NCBI GenBank assembly: GCA_903864275.1
Contig: CAIPFE010000022.1
Span: forward strand, 1-64,000
Direction: 5' to 3'
Origin: an uncultured Mucilaginibacter sp.
GTDB lineage: Bacteria > Bacteroidota > Bacteroidia > Sphingobacteriales > Sphingobacteriaceae
DNA length: 64,000 nucleotides
The position numbers and the translations under genes were made by a program. Numbering within the stretch: the first letter of the stretch is position 1; each line of letters opens with the position of its first letter. Below the pieces are notes generated by a model. The model was not told where the DNA came from. It searched no databases and saw nothing but the letters and a program-made list of their open reading frames with translations. Positions 8,390 to 62,974 of this stretch are shown here, one piece after another.

Positions 8390-8608
8390 CGCCGGTTCAA
8401 GCGTCCCGCTTGAACCCAAACGCCGGTCAGCGTCCCGCTGACATCACCAAATAATCTTCAATGGGCTTTCAGGATTCCCGGGGCCGCCGGTGGTGGTGTT
8501 GCATTGCATGGTAATAATTTGCATAATATTTTTTTATGGCGCAAAAAGAGTTATTATAAGCGGGACGCTTACATTTGCTTAGGTTCAAGCGGGACGTTTG
8601 AACCGGCG
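8390..8608. mobile_element. Non-autonomous derivative of the RAYT element (219 bp)
   Basis: The left part (8390-8474) matches the left end of the transposase element at 15584-15669. The right part (about 8497-8608) matches its right end from about 16168. The transposase gene between them is absent. The outer ends form an inverted repeat of about 27 bp (CGCCGGTTCAAGCG... / ...AACCGGCG) with one mismatch. Four hairpins with a GCG-TCC-CGC or GCG-GGA-CGC type core lie at 8394-8416, 8426-8442, 8557-8571 and 8582-8604. This is the structure of an internally deleted REP/MITE element mobilised in trans. Confidence 0.8.
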
Positions 8609-15524: not shown

Positions 15525-15637
15525 TTTTTTATTCCTTTTTTTATTCTACCTGGCTGAAAAAAAATTAATCTTCCATTTTACCTCGCCGGTTCAAGCGTCC
15601 CGCTTGAACCCAAACGATAGTCAGCGTCCCGCTGACA

Positions 15638-16179
15638 TCACCAAATGACTTTCAGCGGGTTTTCAGGATTTGCGCTGCTATACCAATACTCGTGCGCCGA
15701 ACCCACAAACCCTGCCCTTACCGGATTTTCATGCGTGTAATCGATCTTTTGCTCAATAACCGCAGGTGAAAAAAGCACAACCGGGTAATTGCCATTCTGC
15801 CAAAACTGATGCTTTTCGTTTAACGGATTGTATTTACCCGCCCTGTCAAAAGCTTTCAGCATCCATTCGCGCCGGCTTTCCTGTGTATTGTTGGCTATCA
15901 TCTTGTAAAGTTCTTTTGAAGTGAAGCTTTTAAATCGCCCCAATACATCACCTAATGACCCATCGGTAACATTGGCCACCATGTGAATATGGTTGGTCAT
16001 GATGACATAGGCATAAATATTGAGTTTTGCGTTTTGCTGGCACCAGGCCAGGTTTTCGATAATGAAATCGCTGTAATACCGGCGGGTAAATACATCTATC
16101 CCTGTCTGCCGACAGGCAGGCAGTCTACTACAGTTAAGGTGACGAAGTAAGGTTCGTCGGTTGAGGCGTTGCGTTGCAT
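15638..16179 (-). pseudogene. RAYT (Y1 / IS200-like) transposase, frameshifted by a 20-bp palindrome
   Basis: From ATG 16179 the frame reads MQRNASTDEPYFVTLTVVD. Then a 20-bp insertion (16101-16120) breaks the codon for Trp. After removing it the frame continues WIDVFTRRYYSDF, then MTNHIHMVANV with the HxH metal motif, and ends at 15638. The repaired gene is exactly 174 codons including stop (542 minus 20 bp), a normal RAYT length. The intact 3' part alone is 120 codons from an internal ATG and lacks the N-terminal strand. It is probably inactive now. Confidence 0.85.
16101..16120. repeat. 20-bp palindromic insertion in the transposase gene
   Basis: CCTGTCTGCCGACAGGCAGG, a near-perfect inverted repeat (CCTG.CTGCCG.CAG). 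Deleting it restores VVD-W-IDVFTRR, so the boundaries are exact. No target duplication is visible. Confidence 0.8.
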
Positions 16180-16348
16180 AGTAATAAAGTTGCGGAATAT
16201 TTTTTACATCGCAAAAGAGTTATGTGTAAGCGGGACGCTTACATTGGTTTGGATTCAAGCGGCGGGAGCGCGTGCGCTCGCGAAGGCAATCATTCAAACG
16301 TGTCTTAAACGATTGTTATGAGGATTCACCTGACGCGCGGCTTCTCTT

Positions 16349-62177: not shown

Positions 62178-62615
62178 TTATTGGGGAACGCCGGCATGTT
62201 CTGTTAACAACTGAAGTAAACTTCCTTTGAAATATTGGTTCCAGCCTGCTTCGCAGCCATTATAACATTCTATCTCCGGTACAAGGCCGATGTGCGTCAT
62301 GGTGACCTGTGTCTCATCGCCCACAGCGGAAATTTCAAACACCACGCTGGTTCCGGTCCACTCGGTTTTGTCCTTCAGCCAGGGCAGGTAGCAGTCTGTT
62401 ACCAGCCATGCGATTTTTTTACCGGGTATACTTTCGGTAATTTCAAAAGTTACAAAGGTTCCGCTGCTGAAGCGGACGGTAAAAACATCATTTAATTTTT
62501 CGGTGCTGCCTTCAATGTTTTTTGCCCACCATTCACGGACCTGGTTGATGGCTTCGAACGCCTCAGCGGGCGTAAAGTCTGCAGCTATGCTGCTTTGATA
62601 ATTTTGCTGGTTCAT
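62178..62615 (-). CDS. SRPBCC-domain protein, second locus
   Basis: 145 aa, close paralogue of 34108: MNQQNYQSSIAADFTPAEAFEAINQV, then WLVTDCYLPWLKDKTEWTGTSVVFEI, then TMTHIGLVPEIECYNGCEAGWNQYF. Downstream of the ArsR-type regulator (62651), with a 35-bp gap. Ligand unknown. Confidence 0.88.
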   Translation of the reverse strand: MNQQNYQSSIAADFTPAEAFEAINQVREWWAKNIEGSTEKLNDVFTVRFSSGTFVTFEITESIPGKKIAWLVTDCYLPWLKDKTEWTGTSVVFEISAVGDETQVTMTHIGLVPEIECYNGCEAGWNQYFKGSLLQLLTEHAGVPQ

Positions 62616-62650
62616 TTTATTAATTTTTTAAATGTGTTTTGATAAATTTC

Positions 62651-62974
62651 TTAGTTCGGTAATTTGTTATTCAACAAATTTTCCAGATTCTTCAGTTTCG
62701 ATGTCCAGAACTGGTCGAAGTAATTGAGCCACTCGTGCAGGGCGTTAAACCCGTCCTGCTTCAATGTGCAATGCCGTTCGCGGCCGATGTCCTGAATAGC
62801 TATAAATCCCGCGGAATACAATACTTTAATGTGTTTCGAAACCGCGGGGCGGCTCATGTCGAAATTATCGGCCAGGCTGTTGATGGTTAAACTGTCCTTC
62901 GACAGCAGCATCAGCATATGCCGCCTGCTCGGGTCGGCAATTACCTGGAATGCGTCAAGCGTTGGTTGTGCCAT
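62651..62974 (-). CDS. ArsR-type regulator of the SRPBCC loci
   Basis: 107 aa. Winged helix: FQVIADPSRRHMLMLLSKDSLTINSLADNFDMSRPAVSKHIKVLYSAGFIAIQDIGRERHCTLKQDGFNALHEWLNYFDQFWTSK split in motif order HTH, wing, C-terminal helix. The recognition helix is SRPAVSKHIKVL. Non-metal SmtB/ArsR subgroup. It overlaps the upstream SRPBCC gene by 20 bp. Likely controls the tandem GTAACTTTTGAGTTAC sites at 63413-63456 and at 34642-34685. Confidence 0.88.
   Translation of the reverse strand: MAQPTLDAFQVIADPSRRHMLMLLSKDSLTINSLADNFDMSRPAVSKHIKVLYSAGFIAIQDIGRERHCTLKQDGFNALHEWLNYFDQFWTSKLKNLENLLNNKLPN

Follow-up and report, generated by a model that had tools for sequence, protein, structure and literature searches.

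The window, a stretch of 64,000 nucleotides from an uncultured Mucilaginibacter sp., contains a gene for a REP-associated tyrosine transposase (RAYT) that is interrupted by 20 bp and lies between paired hairpins, together with a shortened derivative of the same unit. We assigned the following features.

15588–15610, no strand: right terminal repeat, outer hairpin (GGTTCAAGCG TCC CGCTTGAACC).
15616–15639, no strand: right terminal repeat, inner hairpin (core GTCAGCG TCC CGCTGAC).
15638–16179, minus strand: RAYT gene, interrupted (frame reading, paralogue alignment and profile match of the paralogue).
16101–16120, no strand: 20-bp palindrome, probably mobile, in the Trp codon of V-V-D-W-I-D-V (empty site in the paralogue).
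16225–16243, no strand: left terminal repeat, inner hairpin (TGTAAGCG GGA CGCTTACA).
16244–16262, no strand: left terminal repeat, outer hairpin, a truncated remnant that is complete in the copy on contig C37.
8390–8608, no strand: MITE of the RAYT unit, derived by internal deletion and retaining 87 bp (90%) of one end of the unit and 110 bp (81%) of the other.

The inserted sequence, CCTGTCTGCCGACAGGCAGG at 16101–16120, occurs once in the window even when up to 3 mismatches are allowed (0 in 100 shuffles). Read on the minus strand from the ATG at 16179, the frame gives MQRNASTDEPYFVTLTVVD, continues into the insert-encoded CLPVGRQG and ends at a TAG, 27 codons in all. Downstream of the insert the RAYT frame is open to 15638; its first ATG, GTG or TTG is the ATG at 16000, from which 120 aa can be read. 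Joined without the 20 bp, the flanks read 173 aa and a stop, so the 174-codon gene that the original prediction expected upon deletion of the insert is correct. The insertion was said to be an exact palindrome: it is exactly 20 bp long, but the window copy is an imperfect palindrome, self-complementary at 16/20 positions. The intact paralogue described below (L263) scores 94.4 bits against the RAYT profile NF047646 (cut-off 80) and 24.5 against PF01797 (cut-off 23). The 120-aa downstream fragment of the window copy reaches 55.4 bits against NF047646, under the cut-off of 80, over positions 55–146 of the 146-position profile, and gave no Pfam match when searched alone. By eye, both the paralogue and the window copy contain N-H-I-H and Y-T-H-E-N-P, which we take to be the HUH motif and the catalytic tyrosine of RAYTs. 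A sequence search for relatives of the RAYT with solved structures returned 0 at E 0.01, and a search of plasmid records returned three records, all matching the neighbouring arsR (nearest Mucilaginibacter, 74%). With its frame closed after 27 codons, the window copy is predicted to have lost its function; residual function is formally possible because the 120-aa downstream frame retains both predicted catalytic motifs.

We established that the 20 bp were inserted by comparing the locus with its relatives. The same genome carries a second RAYT copy (G000:C37:188515-189033, L263), whose protein is 98% identical, which has the same flanking hairpins and which is without the 20 bp, giving a clean before/after pair within one genome and confirming by an empty site that the frame was interrupted by the insert. 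The DNA alignment of the two copies spans 681 bp at 92% identity, flanking hairpin repeats included, and contains 23 gap positions, 20 of which are the insert, the only gap inside the ORF, while the remaining 3 lie upstream of the ORF; the empty site places the insert at 16101–16120 or, equally well, at 16102–16121. In another genome of the genus (G249), one locus (L264) has a full RAYT copy together with a 5' fragment, neither with the insert, and a second locus has a further full-length match. RAYT homologues are present in 81/120 genomes of relatives, and we took the best locus each from 30 of these 81. None of the 30 homologous loci has a gap or insert at the site, and tryptophan occupies the split codon in 29 of them; the intact reading VVDWIDVFTRR, anticipated for homologues, is seen in L263. 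Two findings that would have counted against an insertion, related RAYT genes bearing the same 20 bp and a repaired frame that is not conserved, were thus both absent from the 30 loci, all of which keep an uninterrupted frame. That the 20 bp are ancestral and were lost by the other RAYT copies can scarcely be entertained, given this frame in 30/30 loci and the tryptophan in 29. One homologue (L272, G234:C52:12402-12920) has a stop codon exactly at the Trp codon that the palindrome splits in the window.

Over 522 coding positions the two copies of the genome show 23 differences. Using G249 as the outgroup, we could polarise 17 of these and 6 were ambiguous, giving synonymous/non-synonymous changes of 5/2 on the lineage of the window copy and 9/1 on that of the C37 paralogue. 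On these small numbers both copies look to have been under constraint until recently, and the mostly synonymous changes on both lineages suggest that the insertion happened recently relative to the duplication of the RAYT.

The RAYT unit as a whole is present twice in the genome (window 15588–16262; L263 1401–2076). The C37 copy has two hairpins per end; in the window copy three of these four hairpins are still present and the last is reduced to a remnant. Compared in inverse orientation, the window copy's right end and the C37 copy's left end agree at 50/55 positions. The core AGCGTCCCGCT flanks both RAYT copies on both sides and recurs elsewhere, at 15 places in total (reversed control 1), so that the hairpins beside these genes are repeated in the genome as expected of a RAYT. 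According to the accessible part of one survey, REPtrons do not seem to move as whole units (PMC6006769); contrary to this, two near-identical units at different places, together with the derivative at 8390–8608, suggest that the unit moved as a whole. The two full-length matches and the fragment in G249 likewise look as if a whole unit moves.

We conclude, with a probability of about 85%, that a RAYT unit exists twice in this genome and that one copy was later hit by a 20-bp palindrome belonging to a separate, widespread family of very small mobile DNA. In this genome the 20-mer has three copies, namely the window copy and two copies of the perfect palindrome CCTGCCTGCCGGCAGGCAGG; three copies being all, no burst is visible here. 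One perfect copy (C12, L005) sits in the remnant of a tRNA that precedes a GIY-YIG gene. The other is read in frame close to the beginning of an ORF that encodes a MobA-like domain (C34, L006; PF12804, 99.2 bits); at this site 11/30 homologous loci could be aligned by motif and the palindrome is in the genome's own locus only, which by eye is 21 bases longer than L326 at the palindrome, within a stretch of variable length. The palindrome is read in frame, as LPAGRQ or LPVGRQ, in L076, L080 and L095 (WWE3 and Daviesbacteria contigs), in L149 and in this MobA-like ORF.

Beyond this genome, the 20-mer pattern was found in 25/301 genomes of the family, with up to 29 copies, and in 22/148 genomes of the phylum, the reversed control being 0 among the rows listed in both cases. 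The commonest variant of the palindrome (157/247 copies) is self-complementary at 20/20 positions. Contigs of species representatives contained at least 118 stretches with the 20-mer and viral contigs contained 59; the 80 titles among the matches listed include many Bacteroidota or Patescibacteria and also Omnitrophota, Planctomycetes, Thermodesulfovibrionia, Bacillota and more. Isolates with the 20-mer include Galbibacter orientalis DSM 19592 and Winogradskyella echinorum KCTC 22026. In some repeat-rich genomes the copies lie inside larger repeats, so not all copies are independent; in the counts of junctions, empty sites, fold-backs, tRNAs and open frames given below, identical near flanks were counted once and near-identical sites were kept separate. 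The palindrome thus recurs elsewhere, as the original prediction had supposed, in a family patchily spread over the phylum and beyond. The constancy of its 20 letters across phyla may reflect frequent horizontal movement or selection on the sequence. Searches with palindrome strings (four DNA, two peptide) gave no match in a literature collection outside which many subscription papers lie, and a wider search with the same coverage found no paper on the 20-mer element among the titles and abstracts of the matches listed. Hairpins are error-prone and most titles among the matches listed are drafts or MAGs, as would suit a sequencing or assembly artefact, or a palindromic mutation arising de novo by template switching; we judge either highly improbable, for the same 20 letters stand in independent records, isolates included, the reversed control was 0 among the rows listed, some copies are read in frame within ORFs, and template switching would not yield a single sequence at unrelated sites.

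To describe the footprint of insertion, we searched the fetched loci for an empty counterpart of each site, defined as the 24-base site with up to 2 mismatches elsewhere among them. An empty counterpart lacking exactly 20 bp was found for 32/245 distinct sites; other lengths gave 21 bp at 3 sites, 24 bp at 1 and none at 22, 23, 25 or 26. At least 10 of the 32 matches are weak: 7 (L051, L075, L097, L116, L166, L191, L221) are in palindrome-like sequence and 3 (L008; L169, twice) in simple tandem repeats. Among the others, some are related to one another (tRNA-Arg in L029, L236 and L242; three in L198). The 20-bp sites show neither duplication nor loss, and hence not the target-site duplication of a transposon or MITE. 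At the junctions, T is avoided on the left side and A on the right side: among 242 sites the pair A|T is 2.4 times as frequent as expected and T|A 0.14 times as frequent, and T stands left of the junction on 33/484 symmetrised sides, as against 27% expected. In 70 asymmetric copies that could be oriented, C is at +1 in 71% and A at -3 in 49%, and the insertion site of the window, A-T-C^C, fits this A-N-V^C preference. From these non-random junction bases we infer an enzyme with a weak site preference and not random repair.

Three copies (L075 467, L116 6496, L166 4234) are centred in older, similar palindromes. These nested copies prompted us to consider hairpin tips as targets; stems of at least 6 bp surround the junction at 7.5% of 241 sites, compared with 4.1–7.9% at 10–55 bases off and 5.8–9.1% at 1–5 bases off, and since they are no commoner at junctions than nearby we do not claim such targeting. 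Nor is the breaking of genes a habit of the family, few gene kills being visible among 221 sites. With 60 codons required to be open on each side, 10/221 sites are open only without the insert, as against 4–9 of 215–236 shifted positions; 24/221 are open only with it, as against 91–103 at shifted positions, and 18 more are open both ways. Palindrome copies are outside open frames more than their surroundings are.

These properties bear on how the palindrome arrived. It could be a lone REP that belongs to some RAYT and was brought in by an HUH tyrosine transposase via single-stranded DNA, so that one RAYT family would have hit another. This we regard as doubtful: the 20-mer has the hairpin form, duplication-free insertion is what single-strand transposition would leave and RAYT homologues are common in relatives (81/120 genomes), but no fixed tag of the GTAG/CGTC type stands beside the copies, the window RAYT carries other hairpins (those with the AGCGTCCCGCT core) and the targets show no clear fold-back preference.

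The surroundings of the copies link the palindrome family to tRNA genes and GIY-YIG nucleases. tRNA-like sequence was found at 19/242 junctions versus 0/212 and 0/224 at 1 kb either side, and at 1–6 of 227–243 positions 150–500 bases from the junctions. We assayed proximity to GIY-YIG ORFs with 14 seeds from 12 loci fetched by GIY-YIG similarity and not for the palindrome: 6/7 ORFs on genome contigs and 2/2 on viral contigs lay within 200 bp of a 20-mer copy, a zone that makes up 5.6–5.9% of bases. The chance of 6/7 is 3e-7, or 4e-6 with the tandem pair of L120 counted once. In the biased set of ORFs from palindrome-locus seeds, 13/14 were within 317 bp of a copy and the fourteenth (L024, 851–1081) was about 420 bp away. 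In the usual layout, the D-arm of a 5' tRNA half holds the palindrome, a GIY-YIG ORF starting near the anticodon follows, and 3' of this ORF stand an intact tRNA and, in some cases, a 3' half whose T-arm holds the palindrome; tandem arrays occur at some loci. The identical D-arm position recurs in Bacteroidota, Patescibacteria and one viral contig (L120, L071, L114, L218). PF01541 was detected in 3/3 GIY-YIG ORFs tested, and ARAGORN found no intact tRNA in L191 or L218. The genome of the window has one such element of its own:

L005 1490–1860, corresponding to C12 ~62350–62720: GIY-YIG/tRNA element.

GIY-YIG genes set in tRNA genes were seen in L005, L014, L024, L071, L120, L136, L218 and L236 (Bacteroidota, WWE3 Patescibacteria and viral contigs). 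Some GIY-YIG/tRNA loci carry different palindromes at the corresponding place: CCCGCCCG..CGGGCGGG in L246, CCGTTGGCTAACGG in L248, CCGCCGCGGCGG in L259, CCGCCAGCTGGCGG in L260 and TCCCGATTTTTCAATCGGGA in L262.

The palindrome could accordingly be conceived as a working part of small, homing-like GIY-YIG/tRNA elements, moved by their nuclease, with solitary copies as by-products. The counts near GIY-YIG ORFs (6/7 and 2/2) and at tRNA-like junctions (19/242), the recurrent D-arm position across Bacteroidota, Patescibacteria and a viral contig, and the element in the genome itself all favour this, and it is possible, if on balance unlikely: a GIY-YIG gene is near 18/258 copies and none lies within 1.5 kb of the other 240; the different palindromes at corresponding spots in L246, L248, L260 and L262 indicate that the elements do not require the 20-mer sequence; and co-occurrence among genomes is weak, GIY-YIG genes being present in 16/25 palindrome-bearing genomes versus 8/25 comparison genomes hand-picked to match genera (p=0.046). 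The palindrome-rich genomes G014 (8 copies) and G063 (6) have no GIY-YIG gene at the cut-off used for co-occurrence. Since few copies are near such a gene and this co-occurrence is too weak to make the GIY-YIG nuclease a proven mover, we read the association as a link and not as proof.

Returning to the reading that we prefer, a RAYT unit, consisting of a gene between paired-hairpin terminal repeats, exists in two copies, and the 20-bp palindrome later inserted cleanly into one of them. The 20-mer would move as a hairpin, either single-stranded or extruded, which an enzyme of the host or of an element would cut and join in trans; the two leading candidates for the mover are a GIY-YIG nuclease with a single domain, of the type associated with tRNAs, and an HUH enzyme (RAYT/IS200-like). 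We propose tentatively, and as a rather unlikely version of events, that the bare 20-bp palindrome, common to several bacterial phyla, is itself a mobile unit that inserts at a weakly specific A-N-V^C site without target duplication, that it is either spread by small, homing-like GIY-YIG elements in tRNA genes or acts as their safeguard, protecting the tRNA half that they displace against cleavage or recombination, and that these elements are the source of solitary copies, the one in the window RAYT included.

Our data support the original prediction as right on what is there and largely right on what it means. Its view that one repeat family inactivated the engine of another is borne out insofar as the palindrome is a repeat family and the frame is broken; the engine as such is not lost from the genome, because an intact RAYT, 98% identical, remains on C37. 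The loss of one transposase copy is ordinary; the interest lies in the palindrome family that brought it about. If our reading is true, the 20-mer would rank with the smallest known mobile DNAs; its footprint can be measured (exactly 20 bp, no duplication, a junction preference), and some of its host organisms are in culture. Very small palindromic repeats are already known; judging from sequence, this family adds to them a candidate link to tRNA-borne GIY-YIG elements, and through this nuclease link a concrete candidate enzyme would be at hand for the long-standing problem of the spread of very short palindromic repeats.

Several known systems invite comparison. The SDR5 repeats of cyanobacteria reportedly measure ~20–27 bp and are cleanly inserted into genes and other repeats (as Elhai et al. 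are said to have described in 2008); the 20-mer is similar in size and clean insertion, a likeness by description alone to elements described from cyanobacteria. REPs are, in the accessible part of one account, short hairpins dispersed in genomes, some within genes (PMC3733652), and the 20-mer, which here interrupts a RAYT (TnpA-REP) gene of the REP/REPIN system, is likewise a dispersed short hairpin that is sometimes within genes. The window RAYT itself probably resembles subclass 2.6, which, in the part of PMC6006769 available, is found mostly in Bacteroidetes and has atypical flanking hairpins. The 20-mer differs from REPs in showing a preference at one to three bases in place of their conserved GTAG/CGTC end tag, in that the RAYT pair of its genome is flanked by hairpins other than the 20-mer, and in that, compared with REP/REPIN, nothing but the palindrome is gained by the insertion. 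Rickettsia palindromic elements (RPE) are inserted into coding sequence and some are read through, RPE-1 being longer than the 20-mer and RPE-4 and RPE-6 bearing a CGTC tag, according to the same portion of PMC3733652; the 20-mer also lies in coding sequence and is read through at some sites, but it has no tag and its exact sequence is shared between phyla, and it is set apart from these elements by their tag and length as described there. Finally, phage SegB, described in an excerpt of PMC13096335 as a free-standing homing endonuclease near tRNA genes, resembles the GIY-YIG loci reported here in being a small nuclease gene tied to tRNA genes; as far as that excerpt goes, our loci differ by the palindrome in the D- or T-arm of the displaced tRNA half.
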